64,000 bases of DNA from Williamsia limnetica (lineage in GTDB: Bacteria; Actinomycetota; Actinomycetes; Mycobacteriales; Mycobacteriaceae), in contig NZ_QJSP01000004.1 of assembly GCF_003217475.1 (NCBI RefSeq), forward strand, positions 310,001 through 374,000, in the 5' to 3' direction. A program made the translations under genes and the position numbers. Under the pieces are notes generated by a model. The model searched no databases and was not told the origin of the DNA. It saw only the letters and a list, made by a program, of their open reading frames with translations. This document shows positions 35,224-44,384 of this stretch, one piece after another; the stretch's first letter is position 1, and every line of letters begins with the position of its first letter.

Positions 35224-35925
35224 TCAGTCGACAGCTTCGATCCGCACATCCAGGTCGACTCGTGGGACTTCGTATTGGTGAACGATGTGAACACAGATCC
35301 CGGTCTCGCAGTCGAGTCGAACCAGTGCCGGTGGTGCGATCACCCACTCATCGGTGACGTCATCGAAGTGACCGTCCAGTAGGGGGCAGCACGAACACCG
35401 CGGATCGTAGGCAGTCGTCGATCGTGCAGTGGCCTGCCAGCTTTTGCGGCCGTGATGCACGCCGACACTGATACCGGTGAACTCCACCGACGGCGCGGAC
35501 ACGTCGTCGATGACGTTGGAATGCGCGCTGCCGGCAAGTTCTGCCGGATCAAGCATCGCCACCCAGTGATAGTTCTCGAAGAAGGTTCCGTGTCCGTAGT
35601 CGATGCGCGAGTCATTCGGGCGAGCGATGACCAGACCATCGTGATCTACGGTAGGGGCTGTCGCGGCCGGCCACGACCCCTCGACGGGTAGCCATGGTCC
35701 ATCGCCGCGGCGGTGCATCTGACCATCGAATGGCCGCAAGGCCTGTTGCGTCGTCAGTACCTCACGCGAGGCATCTTCTACGCGGACGGAGCCGGGTCGC
35801 CGTACAACAGCGCGGCGCCATGGTCCCGATGCCGCTGTTGTCCAACGGAACTCGATGCCTGACCAACGCCATGGCGATGATTGGGCGAGGCGACGGAACT
35901 GCGTCGATGTCGGTTGGATGGGCAT
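35224..35925 (-). CDS. Unrecognised protein with CxCC motif
   Basis: A protein of 233 residues I cannot place. It starts with a Trp/Arg-rich segment (SSPWRWSGIEFRWTT), continues with beta-type sequence, and has a DPRCSCCPLLDG motif and a further Cys in CETGIC near the C-terminus, so it may bind metal. No signal peptide or membrane helix. It converges with the SCO6745-type gene and sits next to the HNH/RNA-repair block. Start uncertain: a GAGAG run precedes ATG 35925, but an internal start is possible. Confidence 0.6.
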   Translation of the reverse strand: MPIQPTSTQFRRLAQSSPWRWSGIEFRWTTAASGPWRRAVVRRPGSVRVEDASREVLTTQQALRPFDGQMHRRGDGPWLPVEGSWPAATAPTVDHDGLVIARPNDSRIDYGHGTFFENYHWVAMLDPAELAGSAHSNVIDDVSAPSVEFTGISVGVHHGRKSWQATARSTTAYDPRCSCCPLLDGHFDDVTDEWVIAPPALVRLDCETGICVHIVHQYEVPRVDLDVRIEAVD

Positions 35926-35987
35926 TGACCCACACTCTCACGAACACGGCGCAATAGCTCCTGGGTTTAAGCGCTCGTTCGAGACCG

Positions 35988-36006
35988 GGCAGGCCGCAAG
36001 CCTGCC
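35988..36006. other. Hairpin in the gap before the HNH gene
   Basis: GGCAGGC and GCCTGCC pair around 5 nt. It lies in a 245-nt stretch (35926-36170) that otherwise shows no gene; it may mark an old insertion boundary or be fortuitous. Confidence 0.3.
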
Positions 36007-36157
36007 AAGCCGTCACGCATGGCGATCATCGACTCGGAATTACCGCCGGACGAGAAATTGAAGTCGCGAACAGGGCGGTTTGTCATCTGAATGAATGAAT
36101 CCTGCTCTGATGTCGCGGCTGGCCTGTTTGGGTCGTTTCTGTGTCAGACCCCTGCCG

Positions 36158-36163
36158 TACATT
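36158..36163 (+). promoter_or_regulatory. Minus-10 box for leaderless HNH gene
   Basis: TACATT lies 7 nt before ATG 36171, with no ribosome site. Confidence 0.5.
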
Positions 36164-36170
36164 AGCAAGT

Positions 36171-37994
36171 ATGTTCGAGCCGTGGCCGAGTCTGGACCCT
36201 TCCATCACCGGGATAGCGCCGGCAAACGCGTTGCGGGCCAATGACTTGTTGGCCTCGATCGAGCGGGCGTTGACCGGGCAGGGTTATCTGGAATGGGCCC
36301 GCTACGCCTATGCCGCGGAATTGCACCGCCAGCTCGAGGCCGAAAGCGTTGCCTCCCACGACTTCCTGCAGGACGCATACGTCCAGGCCGCAGCTCGCTT
36401 GGCTTTGGCGAACCGTCTATCCCAGACGGCAGCCGAAAGTCATCTCACCTGCGCGCTCGCATTGCGAGACAGGTTGCCCAACGTTGCACTGGCCCTCAAA
36501 GACGGGCTGGTGGCCGCGCATCACATCTCGAAGATCGTGTCGCGAACCGACCTGATCGAAGGTACCGACCATGCCGCCGACATAGACCGAGACATAGCGG
36601 AGAATCTGCGCAACAAGGGTTCGTGGTCGACCCGCGCCATGCGGGACATGATCGATGCCGCCATCTTTCGGCGCGACCCCGATCTGATACGCGAAGACCG
36701 TAAGGACGCCAAAGACAAGCGTGGAGTCTGGAGCGAGGGTGAGCAGAACGGGATGGGCACCCTGACCGCGACTTTGTCGGCTGAATACACGGCGATGATC
36801 ATGAAACGCTTGGAAATGCTCGCGAAGTCCACCTGCCGACGCGATCCGCGCAAGAAGCCCCAGCGGATGTCTGATGCACTGTTCGCGATCACGATGGGCC
36901 GCGAGTTCGAGTGCCTGTGCGACGAGGACGAAGAGTATCCTTGCTTGGCGGAGATCTGGCCGCTGCCGAGGACGCAGGGGATCGGTGGGGTCGACGTGAA
37001 AATTGTCCTCCATGCCATCGCGAACCAGTCCACGCTCGACGGTGAGGACGACGAGCCGGGCTACCTCGAAGGCCACGGCGTCATCTCCGCCGAACACGCT
37101 CGCGACCTCGCCAAGCAAGACACGACAAAAGTGCGGCCGACGGGCAACAGAACACGACCCAAGCCGGAACCAGAACCTCAGCGGCAGACGGATCCGCAAC
37201 CGGCTGCGGGCTCTGAGCCTGAAAGCCGAGCTGCGCAGACGCATTCGGATTCGCCTCCCAGTACCGACCCCGCCGGTGACGTCACCGACGAACCCGAAGT
37301 GTCGCCCGGCCCAAGCGAGACCAAGGCCGAGACCGAACGCGCCGGTAACCGCAAAGCCCGCCGTGCGGCGAAGAAGGCTGCCACCACGACAATGAACATG
37401 CCGGCACCGCCACGGAGTTCGCGTATCGGAGATCTCGGCAACGTCGACTGGGATGCAATCAAACCGCCCGATTTCGAGGTCATTCCGCTTCCTCCGGTCA
37501 AGCCCGGTGATCACTACCGACCGTCCGCGGTTCTCGATGCCCACCTTCGCATGCGTGACCTGTATTGCATGTGGCCCGGCTGCAACCAGTCCGCCTGGAC
37601 CGCCGATCTCGATCACAGCACCGAATACAACCACAAGGACCCCGCCGCCGGTGGCCATACGCACCCGACGGGGATGAAAGCGCTCTGTCGTTTCCATCAT
37701 CTGCTCAAGACGCACGCGGACTGGGTAGATGACCAGTACGTCGACCGTCAGGGGCGTACCCGAACGGTGGTCATCACACCCGAAGGACGCACCTACGACG
37801 GTCCCGCCTGGACCGGCGACGACCTCTTTCCCGCGCTGCGCCGCATCGTGTGGGAGGACACAGCTCCGGCGCCGCCGCGGAGACGCCCACCGGATCAACC
37901 AGCCCGGACCCGGTCCCGAACCGAGGCCAAACACCAACGACGACAACAGGAACGCAATCGCAACCGGCTACGTCGTGAGTTGCTCGATGAATAA
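36171..37994 (+). CDS. DUF222 / HNH endonuclease (13E12 type)
   Basis: A protein of 607 residues. The N-terminal ~320 residues are the helical DUF222 domain (WARYAYAAELHRQLEAE, ALRDRLPNVALALKDGLV), followed by a ~90-residue Pro/Glu/Ser-rich linker and a C-terminal HNH domain with paired zinc residues YCMWPGCN, catalytic DLDHSTEYN, and ALCRFHHLLKTH. These genes are repeated in mycobacteria and relatives (REP13E12) and may be mobile. The basic tail could bind nucleic acid. Base composition looks less GC-biased than the neighbours. The next gene, hen1, begins 39 nt downstream on the same strand, so read-through is likely. Confidence 0.9.
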   Translation: MFEPWPSLDPSITGIAPANALRANDLLASIERALTGQGYLEWARYAYAAELHRQLEAESVASHDFLQDAYVQAAARLALANRLSQTAAESHLTCALALRDRLPNVALALKDGLVAAHHISKIVSRTDLIEGTDHAADIDRDIAENLRNKGSWSTRAMRDMIDAAIFRRDPDLIREDRKDAKDKRGVWSEGEQNGMGTLTATLSAEYTAMIMKRLEMLAKSTCRRDPRKKPQRMSDALFAITMGREFECLCDEDEEYPCLAEIWPLPRTQGIGGVDVKIVLHAIANQSTLDGEDDEPGYLEGHGVISAEHARDLAKQDTTKVRPTGNRTRPKPEPEPQRQTDPQPAAGSEPESRAAQTHSDSPPSTDPAGDVTDEPEVSPGPSETKAETERAGNRKARRAAKKAATTTMNMPAPPRSSRIGDLGNVDWDAIKPPDFEVIPLPPVKPGDHYRPSAVLDAHLRMRDLYCMWPGCNQSAWTADLDHSTEYNHKDPAAGGHTHPTGMKALCRFHHLLKTHADWVDDQYVDRQGRTRTVVITPEGRTYDGPAWTGDDLFPALRRIVWEDTAPAPPRRRPPDQPARTRSRTEAKHQRRQQERNRNRLRRELLDE

Positions 37995-38033
37995 CCGGTG
38001 TTCTGGCTGCGGCGCATACGTCAGACTGACCCG

Positions 38034-39446
38034 ATGCTGTTGACCATCTCCGTCGAACGCTCGGCGTCTCTTGCGGTGCCGAGCGACCTGGGCTTTCTCC
38101 TGCACAAGCATCCGGAAAAGGTGCAACTGTTCAGCGTCTACGGAGGCACTGCGCATGTTTTCTACCCCGAGGTCACCGACGACCGGTGCACGGTTGCGCT
38201 GGTCCTGGAGGTCGACCCGGTCGCGTTGGTTCGTGGCCGATCTGATGCGCACGACGGGTTCGCGCTCGGGCAATACGTGAACGATCGCGCGTACGTGGCG
38301 TCCTCGCTGTTGTCGGTTGCCATGGCGAAAGTGTTCCGGTCCGCGCTGAACGGTTATTGTTCGGCACGACCAGAACTGGTCGACACCGTGTTGCCGCTGA
38401 CCATCACGTTGCCTGCTGTCCCAGGCGACCCGGACCTGCTGGTCCGTCTGTTCGAGCCGATGGGATGGAACGTGCACGCGGAGCCGATAACGCTGGATGC
38501 GACCCGGCCGGAATGGGGTGATGCGCCACTGGTGTCGCTGACCCTCACGGGTTCGCTGCGGCTCGCAGACGCACTGAACCATCTCTACGTACTGCTACCG
38601 GTTCTCGACGATGCCAAACACTACTGGGTCGATGATGCCGAGGTGGACAAGCTGGTCAGGGCGGGATCGGGATGGCTGGCGACTCACCCGGAGCGGGAAC
38701 TGATCACGCACCGCTACCTTGCGCACCAGCGGGGACTGAAAGATGCAGCGACACTAAGGCTCATCCAACTCGACGATCGGCCCGTCGAGGAGGCGCTGGA
38801 CGACGACGAATCTGCGGCGTCGCGCCCGCTGGTTCACCTCCGCCACGAGGCGGTGCTCAGGGTTGTCGACGAACTGCGGCCGGCGTCGATCGCAGATCTG
38901 GGATGCGGTTCCGGCGCTCTGCTCGGGGCATTGCTGAAGGTGCAGGGCGTCGCACGAGTGATCGGTACGGAGGTATCCGACACCGGGCTGTCGAAGGCCG
39001 CGAAGCGACTGCACGTCGCGGACATGACCGAACGCCAATCCGGTCGGCTGTCGCTGCTGCTGTCGTCGCTGCAGTACGAAGACGAACGCCTCGGAGAACT
39101 CGACCTGGCCATCCTCATGGAGGTCATCGAGCACATTGATCCAGACCGTTTGCCGGCTGTGGTGGCCAACGTATTCGGCGCTATGCGGCCACGTCATGTG
39201 GTGGTGACGACCCCCAACTCCGAATACAACGTGCGCTACCCGGCGTTGGCGGGCGGAGGCTTTCGGCACCCCGACCACCGCTTCGAGTGGACCCGCCTCG
39301 AGTTCGCCGCTTGGGCCGGATCGGTGGGGGAGAGCTACGGCTATGACGTCGATCTGCGCCCGGTGGGCGACGTGGACGACGAAGTGGGATCACCGACACA
39401 GATGGCCATCTTCGGCCGACGAACGGAACTGGAGGAGAAGGCATGA
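38034..39446 (+). CDS. hen1: 3'-terminal RNA ribose 2'-O-methyltransferase Hen1
   Basis: A protein of 470 residues, the usual length of bacterial Hen1. Residues 1-240 form the N-terminal module that contacts Pnkp (it begins MLLTIS and has LGFLLHKHPEKVQ). The C-terminal methyltransferase has the SAM loop DLGCGSG (288-294) and the Hen1 metal site MEVIEH (Glu363, Glu366, His367) plus HPDHRFEWTR (His412/His415). It methylates the 2'-OH at the 3' end of broken RNA before ligation, protecting the repaired site from re-cleavage. Its stop overlaps pnkp by 4 nt. CAGACT lies 6 nt before the ATG. Confidence 0.96.
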   Translation: MLLTISVERSASLAVPSDLGFLLHKHPEKVQLFSVYGGTAHVFYPEVTDDRCTVALVLEVDPVALVRGRSDAHDGFALGQYVNDRAYVASSLLSVAMAKVFRSALNGYCSARPELVDTVLPLTITLPAVPGDPDLLVRLFEPMGWNVHAEPITLDATRPEWGDAPLVSLTLTGSLRLADALNHLYVLLPVLDDAKHYWVDDAEVDKLVRAGSGWLATHPERELITHRYLAHQRGLKDAATLRLIQLDDRPVEEALDDDESAASRPLVHLRHEAVLRVVDELRPASIADLGCGSGALLGALLKVQGVARVIGTEVSDTGLSKAAKRLHVADMTERQSGRLSLLLSSLQYEDERLGELDLAILMEVIEHIDPDRLPAVVANVFGAMRPRHVVVTTPNSEYNVRYPALAGGGFRHPDHRFEWTRLEFAAWAGSVGESYGYDVDLRPVGDVDDEVGSPTQMAIFGRRTELEEKA

Positions 39447-41938
39447 GCCAGTTGAGTATTCCCGAACTGTCGCTCGTCGTTCTCGTCGGCACCAGCGGGT
39501 CGGGCAAGTCGACCTTCGCAGCCACACACTTCGCACCGACGGAAGTGGTATCCAGCGACGCGTGCCGCGCGATGGTCTCGGATGATCCGAACGACCAAGC
39601 GGCAACGTCGGACGCCTTCGGCCTGCTCGAGTACATCGCGGGCAAGCGGCTAGACCGTGGTCGCCTGACGGTGATCGATGCAACCAACGTGCAACCCGCA
39701 TCCCGAAAATCGTTGCTCGCGTTGGCCAAGGACCACGATGTGCTGCCGGTGGCGATCGTCCTGGACCTGCCGACGTCGGTCGCGGCCGAGCGTAACGCGT
39801 CTCGACCGGACCGGGACTTCGGCGCCCACGTCATCAAACGTCAGCATGATCAACTGCGGCGGTCGTTGCGAAGCCTCAAACGCGAGGGATTTCGGACCAT
39901 CCATGTGCTGGACTCGGTCGAGGCCGTCGCCGACGCGTCGATCGTCCGAACCCGACTGTTCAACGATCAGCGTGACCAGCACGGTCCGTTCGATGTGATC
40001 GGTGACGTGCACGGGTGCCGAGAGGAACTCGAGTCGCTGCTCGCTCGCCTGGGCTACGTGTTGACCAGCGACGACCGTGGTCGCCCGGTCGACGCTTCCC
40101 ATCCTGCCGGTCGCCGGGCAGTCTTCGTCGGTGATCTGGTTGATCGTGGACCGGATTCAGCGGGCGTCCTGCGTCTGGTGATGGGCATGGTCCGGAGCGG
40201 CAGTGCACTGTGCGTCTCGGGGAACCACGAGGCGAAGCTCGTGCGCGCTCTGGGCCGCAAGGATGTCAAACCGACCCACGGACTGCAGGAGACGCTGGAT
40301 CAACTGGCGAACGAAGACGAGTCGTTCATCGCTGATGTGCGTCGGTTCTGCGACGGGCTCGTCGCCCACTATGTGCTCGACGACGGCAAACTCGTTGTCG
40401 CTCATGCGGGCCTGAAGGAGAAGTACCACGGCCGTGCATCGGGCCGCGTACGTGCGTTCGCCCTGTACGGCGACACCAGTGGTGAAACCGACGAGTTCGG
40501 CTTGCCGGTTCGTTACCCATGGGCCGATGACTACCGAGGTGCAGCGACGGTGTTGTACGGGCACACGCCGGTCCCGGAGACCGAGTGGATCAACAATACG
40601 ATGTGCCTTGACACCGGTTGTGTGTTCGGCGGCGAGCTGACCGCATTGCGCTATCCCGAGCGTGAGGTCGTCTCGGTGCCTGCCACCGCGACACATTACG
40701 AGCCGGTGCGCCCGCTCGCCCCGCCTCAACGCGATCCGGAAGTGTTCACCCTGACCGATGTTTTGGGTCACCGGGTGATCGAGACCGAACACATGGGGCG
40801 ACTGTCGCTCCGAGAAGAGAATGCGGCCGGTGCCCTGGAGGTGATGAGCAGGTTCGCCATCGCTCCTGCACAGCTGGTCTACCTTCCTCCGACCATGTCG
40901 CCTGTCGACAGTTCGACACGTGACGGTGTTCTCGAGCACCCGGATGAAGCGTTCGGTCACTACGCGAAGCGCTCGGTCGATCAGGTGATCTGCGAAGAGA
41001 AGCACATGGGCTCGCGTGCCATCGTGCGCGTGTCCGCCGACGGATCCGGTGTCATCCACTCCCGCACCGGACGGGCATTTTTCGACGCCGACCAGCAGGC
41101 GACGGTGTTGACGCGGATCGCTGATGCTCTTGCTGCAGCAAATATCTGGACCGAACTCGACGCCGGCTGGCTGCTACTCGACACCGAGATACTGCCGTGG
41201 ACCGCGAAGGCAGAGGCGATGGTCCGCAGTCAGTACGCGAGGGTCGGTGCTGCCGCGATGGCCTCGCTGCCCGCGGCGATCGGCGTACTGGAGGCTGCCG
41301 CAGCGCGCGGCGCCGACGTCGGAGACCTGCTCGCGAGAACACGGTCACGGGCGGGCAACGCCGAGCGCTTCATCGACTCGTACCGCCACTATGTGCAACC
41401 GATTGACAACCCACTGGGCGTTCAGGTGGCGCCGTTCCAGGTGCTCGCCAGCGACACAGGCACTTACGAGACACGCGATCATCAGTGGCACCTCGAGATC
41501 GCGGATCGGCTCGTGGGCGTCGATCCGGAGTTGTTCAGGTCAACAAGGCGTTTGGTGGTCGACACGACCGACGAGGCATCGCGTGCCGCGGGCGTCGCGT
41601 GGTGGGGGGACCTCACTGCCGACGGCGGTGAGGGCATGGTGGTCAAGCCGCTGCGCAACCTGGTTCGCGGGCCGAAGGGGCTGGTGCAGCCAGGACTCAA
41701 GGTCCGCGGACCCGAGTACTTACGCATCATCTACGGCGCCGATTACACCGACCAGTCGACGCTGTCGCGTCTCAAGCAGCGCAATCTCGGCCACAAACGG
41801 TCGATGGCGTTGCGTGAGTACGCCCTCGGTCTCGAATCGATCCGCCGCGCCGTTGCGGGTGAACCTGTGTTCAGGGTCCACCAGTGCGTCTTCGGTGTTC
41901 TCGCCATGGAGTCCGAGCCGGTGGATCCGCGGTTGTGA
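39443..41938 (+). CDS. pnkp: Polynucleotide kinase-phosphatase-ligase Pnkp
   Basis: A protein of 831 residues with three catalytic domains in the order of Clostridium thermocellum Pnkp: 5' kinase with P-loop GTSGSGKS (16-23); metallophosphoesterase with GDVHG (187-191), GDLVDRGP (230-237) and GNHE (260-263); ligase/adenylyltransferase with the nucleophile Lys520 in EEKHMGSR and motif IV EGMVVKP (730-736), then LKVRG (752-756). It heals 2',3'-cyclic phosphate and 5'-OH ends and seals them with Hen1. All catalytic motifs look intact. ATG overlaps the hen1 stop (ATGA). Confidence 0.97.
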   Translation: MSQLSIPELSLVVLVGTSGSGKSTFAATHFAPTEVVSSDACRAMVSDDPNDQAATSDAFGLLEYIAGKRLDRGRLTVIDATNVQPASRKSLLALAKDHDVLPVAIVLDLPTSVAAERNASRPDRDFGAHVIKRQHDQLRRSLRSLKREGFRTIHVLDSVEAVADASIVRTRLFNDQRDQHGPFDVIGDVHGCREELESLLARLGYVLTSDDRGRPVDASHPAGRRAVFVGDLVDRGPDSAGVLRLVMGMVRSGSALCVSGNHEAKLVRALGRKDVKPTHGLQETLDQLANEDESFIADVRRFCDGLVAHYVLDDGKLVVAHAGLKEKYHGRASGRVRAFALYGDTSGETDEFGLPVRYPWADDYRGAATVLYGHTPVPETEWINNTMCLDTGCVFGGELTALRYPEREVVSVPATATHYEPVRPLAPPQRDPEVFTLTDVLGHRVIETEHMGRLSLREENAAGALEVMSRFAIAPAQLVYLPPTMSPVDSSTRDGVLEHPDEAFGHYAKRSVDQVICEEKHMGSRAIVRVSADGSGVIHSRTGRAFFDADQQATVLTRIADALAAANIWTELDAGWLLLDTEILPWTAKAEAMVRSQYARVGAAAMASLPAAIGVLEAAAARGADVGDLLARTRSRAGNAERFIDSYRHYVQPIDNPLGVQVAPFQVLASDTGTYETRDHQWHLEIADRLVGVDPELFRSTRRLVVDTTDEASRAAGVAWWGDLTADGGEGMVVKPLRNLVRGPKGLVQPGLKVRGPEYLRIIYGADYTDQSTLSRLKQRNLGHKRSMALREYALGLESIRRAVAGEPVFRVHQCVFGVLAMESEPVDPRL

Positions 41939-41949
41939 GGCAGGCTCGC

Positions 41950-42951
41950 TCAGCCCTCTTCAGGCAACAGGTTCTTCCGGTCCAGCACATAGAGCAGACC
42001 GAGGGACGGCAGCACGATCAGTCCGGCCGCGACCGTGGCTACCAGTAGCGCGCCCAGCGTGCCCGACGGTGCTGCCGCCTCGGTCACCGTGACCGTCTCG
42101 GGCAGCAGGTAGGGCGTCTGCGCGACGCCGTACGCCACCAGCGCCGCCACCACGGCCGTACCCGACAGCCACTGTGAGAACCGGGTGTCGCGGCGGACGA
42201 TCAGCACCAGTGATGCGACACCGCAGAGCCCGGACAATATCATCAGGGGCAACGCCCTCGACGTCAGCCCGTCGAAGAGGTAGGGGGCGTATTCGCGGAG
42301 TATCAGAACGCCGGCAGCAAGCGTGATCCCGGCAACGACGGCCGCGCCGATGGCCCGTCGCCGAAAGTACTCGACCATCTCGTCGTCGCCGAGTCGGCGT
42401 GCATCGGCGATGAGGTTGACCGCTGCCAGGTAGGCGGCCACGACCACCGCGAGCACACCACCCAGGATCGATACAGGGTCCATCCAGCTCGCGAACGAGT
42501 CACCGGCTTTGCCCCCCGGCGGCACCTGCCCCGAGGCGATGGCGCCGATGACCGCGCCCAGGCAGTACGGGACGAGGACGGACGACGTCGCGAACACTGC
42601 GCCGAAGCGCCGACGGTCGCGGGTGCGCAGCACGGCCTTGCGGAAGGCAAAGCTGGCGCCTCGCAGCACTATCCCCAGCGCAGCGATGGTGAGGGGGACG
42701 AACAGGGTCAATGTGATCGACGCGTACACCTGTGGGAATGCCGTCCAGAGCACCACGAAACTGAAGATCAGCCACACGTGGTTCGCCTCCCACACGGGTC
42801 CGATGGAGCGATCTATCAGCTCGCGTGGTCGTGCCCCGGCTTCGGTCCCGCCGGCGACGAGGTCCCAGAAGCCCGCCCCGAAGTCGGCTCCTCCGAAAAC
42901 GGCATACGCGATGATGCCGATCATCAAGACGATCGCGATGATGTCGCTCAT
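41950..42951 (-). CDS. cydB: Cytochrome bd-type oxidase subunit II
   Basis: A protein of 333 residues with about eight helices and the CydB pattern: FGGADFGAGFWDL, GPVWEANHVWLIF and FPQVYASI. With subunit I it forms a quinol oxidase of the cytoplasmic membrane. Its ATG overlaps the cydA stop by 4 nt. It converges on pnkp with only 11 nt between stops. Confidence 0.95.
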   Translation of the reverse strand: MSDIIAIVLMIGIIAYAVFGGADFGAGFWDLVAGGTEAGARPRELIDRSIGPVWEANHVWLIFSFVVLWTAFPQVYASITLTLFVPLTIAALGIVLRGASFAFRKAVLRTRDRRRFGAVFATSSVLVPYCLGAVIGAIASGQVPPGGKAGDSFASWMDPVSILGGVLAVVVAAYLAAVNLIADARRLGDDEMVEYFRRRAIGAAVVAGITLAAGVLILREYAPYLFDGLTSRALPLMILSGLCGVASLVLIVRRDTRFSQWLSGTAVVAALVAYGVAQTPYLLPETVTVTEAAAPSGTLGALLVATVAAGLIVLPSLGLLYVLDRKNLLPEEG

Positions 42952-44384
42952 GGATCCGACCCCGATGGGACAGGCTCGGGGTCATCGGTCGGGCCGTACG
43001 GAACGCCGACATCGTCGTCGGACCGCTCTGCCGCGTCGGCTGCACGGAACCGCCGGCTCATGTGTCGCAGAACCAGGACCGTGGTCACCCCGAGCGCGAG
43101 GTAGATCAGCACGACGACGATGAAAGTGATCCAGACGCTGGTGTTTCCGGTGGCTGCGTCCTCTACCCTCATGTAGTTGTAGACGATCCATGGTTGTCGG
43201 CCGACCTCGGAGACGATCCAGCCCGCCTCCATCGTGATCACCGCCAGCACCCCGCAGCACGCAGCGACTCGAAGGAACAGTTTGCTCTGCGGCATGTCCT
43301 TGCGGAAGATCCAGCACAGGCCGTACCAGAGGGCGATCACCATCAGGAACGACCCGAGGCCCACCATCACATCCCAGGCGAGGTGGACGGTGTTGGCCTG
43401 AGAGTAGGTGGGGCGGTCGGCCTCGGGGAAGCTGTTGAGTCCCCGCACCACCGTGGATGTACCGGAGGAGGGATCGGACAGGATGGACGCCATTCCGGGA
43501 ATGGGTATGCCGCCGCTGACCGTGCCGTCCTCGTTGATCCGGCCGAGGAGGGTCTCGGGCACGTCGCTGCTGGTCTCGGGAACGATCTCCATCGCAGCGA
43601 ACTTCATGGGCTGGTTCTGATACACCCAGCGCGCCAACGCATCCCCGATCGCCATCTGCGGGATCATGGCCACGCTCGCGACCGAGAACGGGATGACGAA
43701 CCCGAGACGGTGGTAGCGGTCGCGTCTGCCGCGCAGCATGCCAACCGCATAGACCGAGGCGACGAGGAACCCGCCGACGACGTACGCCGCGACGATCATG
43801 TGCGCGGACTGCAGCGGCATCGACTTGTTGAAGATGACCTCCAGCGGGTCGACCTCGACAACCTTGCCCGCCTCGTCGAGGGTGAACCCGGAGGGCGTGT
43901 TCATCCACGCGTTGGCGGCGATGACCGATGCGCTGCCGAGGATGCCGGCGAGAACGATCGGGATACCGGTGATGAAATGCGTCCACGGTGTGAGCCGTTT
44001 CCATCCGTAGATGTAGATGGCCACGAAGATCGCCTCGGTGAAGAAGAACAATCCCTCGAACGCGAACGGGATCCCGAACGCCTCACCCCACTGACTCATG
44101 AATTCGGGCCAGAGCAAACCGAATTCGAACGACAGCACGGTCCCGGTCACTGCTCCGACCGCAAAAGTGACCGCCATGTACTTCGACCAGCGCTGCGCGA
44201 GGCGCATCGCGTCGGCATCGCCGTGACGTATCCCCCGGTAGTTCGCGATGAGCGTCATGAACGCCCACGAGACCCCGAGTGGAACCAAGATGATGTGAAA
44301 AGCGAGGGTGAACGCCATCTGCGAGCGGGCCCAGGGCAGCGGATCGACCTCGGGCATGGCCAGGACGAGCTGCGTAGCGCTCAC
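42948..44384 (-). CDS. cydA: Cytochrome bd-type oxidase subunit I (cyanide-insensitive-like)
   Basis: A protein of 478 residues. Haem-ligand and quinol regions are visible: ARSQMAFTLAFHIILVPLG (His of haem b595 region), an EGLFFFTEAIFVAIYIYGW helix, and the GRQPWIVYNYMRVEDA segment. The N-terminus and short Q-loop resemble the cyanide-insensitive CIO branch rather than mycobacterial CydA (which begins with a WQFGITT-type helix). No cydDC is nearby, in line with the CIO type. The start is GTG inside the palindrome TCACGTGA (44381-44388). It was probably acquired or kept as a second oxidase. Confidence 0.92.
   Translation of the reverse strand: MSATQLVLAMPEVDPLPWARSQMAFTLAFHIILVPLGVSWAFMTLIANYRGIRHGDADAMRLAQRWSKYMAVTFAVGAVTGTVLSFEFGLLWPEFMSQWGEAFGIPFAFEGLFFFTEAIFVAIYIYGWKRLTPWTHFITGIPIVLAGILGSASVIAANAWMNTPSGFTLDEAGKVVEVDPLEVIFNKSMPLQSAHMIVAAYVVGGFLVASVYAVGMLRGRRDRYHRLGFVIPFSVASVAMIPQMAIGDALARWVYQNQPMKFAAMEIVPETSSDVPETLLGRINEDGTVSGGIPIPGMASILSDPSSGTSTVVRGLNSFPEADRPTYSQANTVHLAWDVMVGLGSFLMVIALWYGLCWIFRKDMPQSKLFLRVAACCGVLAVITMEAGWIVSEVGRQPWIVYNYMRVEDAATGNTSVWITFIVVVLIYLALGVTTVLVLRHMSRRFRAADAAERSDDDVGVPYGPTDDPEPVPSGSDP

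Follow-up and report, generated by a model that had tools for sequence, protein, structure and literature searches.

A Pnkp-Hen1 RNA-repair cassette of canonical type and probable horizontal origin in Williamsia limnetica

A 64,000-nucleotide stretch of the Williamsia limnetica genome (contig NZ_QJSP01000004.1, positions 310,001 to 374,000; hereafter the window) carries two overlapping genes, hen1 and pnkp, whose predicted products belong to the bacterial Pnkp-Hen1 RNA-repair system. The host genome comprises 6.35 Mb in 52 contigs and groups with Williamsia. The cassette and its upstream neighbor are laid out as follows.

38034..39446, plus strand: hen1, 470 aa, ATG start at 38034
39443..41938, plus strand: pnkp, 831 aa
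39443..39446, plus strand: ATGA stop/start overlap of hen1 and pnkp, read directly from the sequence
36141..37994, plus strand: gene for a DUF222 protein (PF02720; synteny) with what we take to be an HNH-like motif at its C-terminus

A first-pass annotation, made without database searches, had described both genes as complete and overlapping by ATGA, and full-length matches to family models uphold this description. The overlap conforms to the operon arrangement of the Pnkp-Hen1 system, and cotranscription is predicted from the layout. The mechanically called open reading frame (ORF) of Hen1 begins at a GTG at 37998; its 12 additional N-terminal residues are unconserved across the aligned relatives.

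Hen1 matched the NCBI equivalog model TIGR04074 with 611 bits (cut-off 340) over residues 3-461, and Pnkp matched TIGR04075 with 1330 bits (cut-off 750), both scores being far beyond chance. Residues 1-243 of Hen1 correspond to Hen1_L (PF12623, 344 bits), the N-terminal ligase-associating module, while the C-terminal part is an S-adenosylmethionine (SAM) methyltransferase; the product is a predicted 3'-terminal RNA ribose 2'-O-methyltransferase. Pnkp unites in a single chain, in this order, an AAA_33 kinase (PF13671), a Metallophos domain (PF00149) and a PNKP_ligase domain (PF16542), with predicted roles as 5'-kinase, 2',3'-cyclic phosphate phosphoesterase/phosphatase and RNA ligase. Searches against the PDB returned 4dqz (E 1e-69) and 3jwg (E 1e-49) for Hen1 and 4gp6, 4j6o and 4drf for Pnkp; solved relatives thus exist for all domains of the two proteins. 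Both marks of a bacterial Hen1 are present, namely a full-length equivalog match and a SAM loop together with a Glu/Glu/His/His metal site in alignment with 3jwg. The same holds for the marks of a bacterial Pnkp, i.e., the three-domain fusion order and the catalytic residues, with the kinase also agreeing with 4gp6. On these sequence grounds the pair is confirmed as an intact, canonical bacterial Pnkp-Hen1 RNA-repair cassette, a known kind of system at a locus that is itself ordinary.

The motifs were checked by looking up the residues of the window proteins in the same columns of 129 Pnkp and 117 Hen1 sequences, the window included. For Hen1, 13 of the 129 loci with a Hen1 match were excluded as short, split or stop-containing, leaving 116 plus the window. 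The positions covered in Pnkp were G16, G21, K22, S23, D39, R121 and R124 (P-loop and kinase); D188, H190, D231, R235, N261, H262, H321, H374 and D390 (phosphoesterase); and K520, R525, R541, R544, D580, E582, E730, K735, K753 and R755 (ligase). In Hen1, they were D288, G290, G292 and G294 of the SAM loop, E363, E366, H367 and H415 of the metal site, and E418. The catalytic roles of all these residues are presumed; the alignment itself shows their conservation. Exceptions among the Pnkp columns were few: S23 is Thr in two of the 129 rows, R121 is His in one, R124 is Ile in five, K753 is a gap in one, and R755 is Leu in one and a gap in another. The remaining checked Pnkp columns and the SAM-loop, metal-site and E418 columns of Hen1 are invariant. 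The only checked place at which the window leaves the majority is the SAM acid of Hen1, where it has Glu313; this column holds Asp in 106 of 117 rows and Glu in 11, the window included. The earlier claim that the catalytic motifs of both proteins are intact thus stands, no catalytic position failing in either alignment.

The cassette closely resembles the Pnkp-Hen1 prototypes, which we take to come from Clostridium thermocellum and Anabaena variabilis (the presumed source species of the PDB entries), in gene order, domain order, motif residues, the Hen1_L module and the PDB matches. It differs from them in lineage detail only: the ATGA overlap, Glu313 at the SAM acid position, and a ligase part that falls 28 residues short of the 4drf stretch aligned with it. 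The Pnkp1-Rnl-Hen1 heterohexamer of Capnocytophaga gingivalis performs the same chemistry with a distantly related Hen1 and ligase (PMC4411300). In that bacterium, however, the kinase-phosphatase and the ligase are separate and hen1 is unlinked, whereas the window has a single Pnkp chain and adjacent genes, an arrangement that sets it apart from the Pnkp1-Rnl-Hen1 type (PMC4411300). Phage T4 Pnkp and Rnl1 likewise heal and seal cut tRNA (PMC4411300), but this system has no methyltransferase, and 0 of 131 phage records matching the window Pnkp covered 80% of it in one place.

In the mechanism proposed for the pair, a ribonuclease would cut RNA such as tRNA and leave 5'-OH and 2',3'-cyclic phosphate ends. 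Pnkp would phosphorylate the 5' end with its kinase and clear the 3' end with its phosphoesterase, and Hen1 would methylate the exposed 2'-OH. The Pnkp ligase, expected to be active only with the Hen1 N-terminal module bound, would then rejoin the ends, with the result that the same cut would be blocked. This reaction order and the Hen1-dependent ligation come from other bacteria (PMC4411300 and works it cites), and the mechanism is echoed in PMC3973293; the biochemistry that the first-pass annotation had described, repair combined with 2'-O-methylation against re-cutting, agrees with these accounts (PMC4411300). The system was reported from about 250 species, with hen1 and pnkp always in one operon, and its in vivo substrates, like the structure of the Pnkp-Hen1 heterotetramer, were stated as unknown in 2015 (PMC4411300). 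A search of later literature found no paper settling the natural substrate or role of Pnkp-Hen1.

The distribution of the pair was surveyed at several levels, the family and order searches covering even samples and not every genome. Within the genus, Hen1 and Pnkp were both over cut-off in eight of nine genomes, and the ninth (G001) gave weak partial matches only. Across the family sample, Pnkp was over cut-off in 110 of 401 genomes and Hen1 in 111; all 110 genomes with Pnkp also hold Hen1, and the single Hen1-only genome (G097) corresponds by position to the W. herbipolensis locus L024. There, the Pnkp match is split in two, with a change of frame between the parts, and ends before the ligase domain (L024:9410-10860), well inside the contig and next to a full-length Hen1 match with no stop. 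In the order sample, Pnkp was over cut-off in 131 of 397 genomes, with a match at E 1e-150 in 41 of 86 genera. At least 565 confirmed relatives emerged from a scan of genome contigs, and the analysis retained the 80 best. Presence is thus patchy above the genus level, and it is at this level that the sporadic occurrence claimed by the first-pass annotation holds.

The genus count covers two different cassettes. Four genomes (G000, G004, G006 and G007) carry the window type, which lies beside cydAB and has conserved neighbors; in G006, additional DNA separates hen1 from the DUF222 gene upstream of it and pnkp from cydB. A second type occupies another site in G002, G003, G005 and G008, and its Hen1 and Pnkp are only 42-43% and 53-54% identical, respectively, to those of the window type. 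In the second-type loci (20 kb each), the window neighbors were unmatched save for cross-hits of two ABC-transporter ATPases. A Pnkp tree was built quickly and without a mixture model from 68 of the 129 sequences (at least 700 aa), hand-picked for spread and excluding the broken L024. It placed the window type within a 13-row group with support of 100, which also takes in Aeromicrobium ginsengisoli, Nocardioides jensenii, W. maris and representatives of further genera of the family, whereas the second type fell elsewhere, with G275 and G040. A joint clade of seven genus rows representing both types (without G005 and without duplicates of L021 and L022) was 297 log-likelihood units worse and was rejected with p-AU 5e-7 in a test run after the tree had been seen. 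The fine branching of this tree is untrustworthy, since it contains one long row (L138) and lacks a mixture model. The genus seems to have gained Pnkp-Hen1 twice, and horizontal transfer would be the simplest reading of the two-cassette pattern. No empty insertion site was recognized, as G001 has cydAB but no other window neighbor within the 20 kb read; no insertion point can be defined for this reason. At position 124 of Pnkp, Ile is found in L131-L134 and L150, i.e., the second cassette type and its relative, and Arg in the other 124 of 129 rows.

Relatives of the cassette also reside on plasmids. Among 72,556 plasmid records, 361 had a Pnkp match, and in 18 a single place accounted for at least 80% of Pnkp. 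The best matches, both full-length, were on Rhodococcus aetherivorans pRaL13f (81.9% Pnkp identity) and R. ruber unnamed1 (81.3%); both plasmids are typed as conjugative, and Hen1 adjoins Pnkp on each. The surroundings of the cassette were read in 13 of these 18 records, leaving aside H17, H27 and three others, with flanks of 5-12 kb cut at record ends. Control stretches of similar size were taken from the same 13 plasmids, about half a plasmid away or at the nearest possible place. By the records' own annotation, which is incomplete, a toxin or antitoxin gene lies in seven of the 13 cassette stretches (H13, H14, H19 with an antitoxin-like gene only, H21, H22, H23 and H26; none is annotated in H15, H16, H18, H20, H24 and H25) vs. 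one of 13 controls, that of Skermanella (two-sided Fisher p 0.030; paired sign test 6 vs. 0, p 0.031). Counting in an RHS gene from Leptospira raises the control figure to two of 13, with a Fisher p of 0.097 and a sign test of 5 vs. 0 (p 0.0625). This association is a lead only, because the hypothesis was post hoc and Deinococcus contributes four of the 13 plasmids.

Taken together, the window very likely holds a bacterial Pnkp-Hen1 RNA-repair cassette of the canonical type. It was probably gained by horizontal transfer and would act by healing, methylating and sealing cut ends. We infer that the pair is functional in its host and shields it from toxins that cut RNA, whether the host's own, those of rivals or those of phage-defence systems; such protection would be its most likely role. 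Several observations weigh against this account. The GC contents of hen1 (0.639) and pnkp (0.644) give no foreign-origin signal relative to the whole window (0.649), and no promoter-like site turned up when 35900-42100 was scanned crudely for sigma-70 sites (0.9 expected by chance), a result that says little for an actinobacterium. Hen1 has Glu313 in place of the commoner Asp. The host genome also encodes RtcB, another RNA ligase, and RNA repair may therefore be shared. Finally, near-universality in the genus could read as housekeeping; the first-pass annotation had itself named universality in the genus as the sign of a housekeeping role. By number this is almost the case, yet the count of eight in nine misleads because it covers two distant cassettes at two sites, and the accessory reading therefore survives.

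A housekeeping role, in which the pair would act on endogenous RNAs during normal growth (RNA maturation or turnover) and be kept for that purpose, could draw on this genus count and on the synteny of the window-type locus in four genomes. It nevertheless appears quite improbable: Pnkp is under cut-off in 291 of 401 family genomes and in one of the nine genus genomes, two unrelated cassette versions occupy two sites, the Pnkp of W. herbipolensis is broken, and kin are plasmid-borne. The two-cassette pattern, the broken copy and the conjugative-plasmid kin favor an accessory, horizontally traded role over housekeeping. Self-protection, whereby the cassette would mend collateral cuts by the strain's own toxin (a toxin-antitoxin RNase or a secreted polymorphic toxin), is suggested by toxin-like genes in the host genome, where one PemK/MazF-like and one PIN-domain match were over cut-off, and by the plasmid association. 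This explanation is rather unlikely, however, as those matches lie on other contigs, the plasmid association is small and post hoc and weakens once the Leptospira RHS gene joins the controls, and the window offers no toxin. The first-pass annotation had concluded from the pair that the strain or its rivals make an RNA-cleaving toxin; no recognizable toxin appeared among the 26 window proteins, pair included, that were scanned with Pfam, and this claim was not borne out.

Tolerance of counter-attack, in which the pair would neutralize RNases delivered by competitor bacteria, was proposed by the authors of PMC4411300. The tree pattern and the conjugative plasmids, which point to horizontal spread, are consistent with it, making it a realistic possibility, if somewhat short of an even chance. 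A further proposal can be made tentatively: the cassette may be a traded ribotoxin-tolerance module, such that sister species of one genus meet the same need with two unrelated cassettes at two sites, the window type is still moving on the conjugative plasmids of relatives, plasmid-borne pairs tend to lie among toxin-antitoxin genes, and the natural substrates are RNAs cut by mobile toxin-antitoxin RNases. For the canonical cassette as such, the biochemistry is well worked out; what the present analysis adds is the occurrence of two cassettes within one genus, a broken copy, and kin on conjugative plasmids. With one cassette, an unrelated one, none over cut-off and a near relative's broken copy, Williamsia provides natural comparisons for what the pair protects against, and the plasmid-borne copies point to transferable protection.

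Searches for toxins and other RNA-repair genes gave further context. The PemK/MazF-like and PIN-domain searches that were positive in the host were also positive in three and 10 of 14 control genomes, respectively. A colicin E5 search of the host genome gave no match, and it is uninformative because all 14 control genomes were silent as well. PADLOC, applied to six window proteins including the pair, returned a single weak match, in which the methyltransferase part of Hen1 hit mads_2 (31 bits). The RlaP nucleotidyltransferase, which accompanies the pair on some plasmids, was considered as a partner and rejected, as the host genome has none at E 0.001 (three of 14 control genomes were positive).

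On two Deinococcus plasmids (D. ficus and D. gobiensis), other genes lie between hen1 and pnkp. Two nucleotidyltransferase genes occupy this place on both, and two lie just after pnkp on an Asticcacaulis plasmid (L157:7562-9294, L160:8261-9966 and L161:12519-14308). The D. ficus and Asticcacaulis proteins match Pfam RlaP, and those of D. gobiensis are 71-77% identical to the D. ficus ones; BLAST matches to these nucleotidyltransferases were also found near the pair in the actinobacterial loci L034, L040, L043 and L148. Skermanella rosea pSR-1 carries Hen1-Pnkp and RtcB-prfH within about 8 kb, with a MazE-like antitoxin gene alongside (L158:8019-16560), an apparent RNA-repair island. On Methylobacterium pAMS5b (L156:2903-12804), a gene annotated as having a ribonuclease domain (Pfam Ribonuclease 22.8 bits, under the cut-off of 24) and an Imm8 immunity gene lie within 6 kb of Hen1-Pnkp.

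Among the chromosomal neighbors, the DUF222 gene is no defined part of the cassette. Its stop precedes the hen1 ATG by 39 bp, and because this distance is so short, cotranscription of the two is possible; it lies immediately 5' of hen1 in three of the four window-type genomes of the genus. A search for a conserved third cassette gene was abandoned and used for no count, since antisense ORFs of the cassette dominated the neighbor clustering. A luciferase-like (LLM) oxidoreductase gene was likewise rejected as a partner: it is real 5' of hen1 in other actinobacteria, but no orthologue lies beside the window cassette. In 12 loci (L028, L035, L040, L044, L049, L051, L052, L062, L066, L068, L075 and L088), its orthologue shares the strand of the Hen1 match and ends at most about 180 bp 5' of it, with 69-75% identity to that of L052. 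We take these loci to belong to Streptosporangiaceae genera, the family being in part assumed. LLM genes of 56-65% identity are located about 0.1-5 kb 5' of hen1 in many Streptomyces and in three Actinomadura loci, one of them on the opposite strand. Downstream, cydAB (41950-44384, opposite strand) abuts the cassette; cydAB of the window type is retained in G001, the genome without the cassette, and a second, distant relative of cydB (28% identical) is encoded elsewhere in the host genome. Near the start of the window, a gene with a weak match to an IrrE/M78 peptidase (24 bits, cut-off 22) lies at 2335-2751 among small genes.

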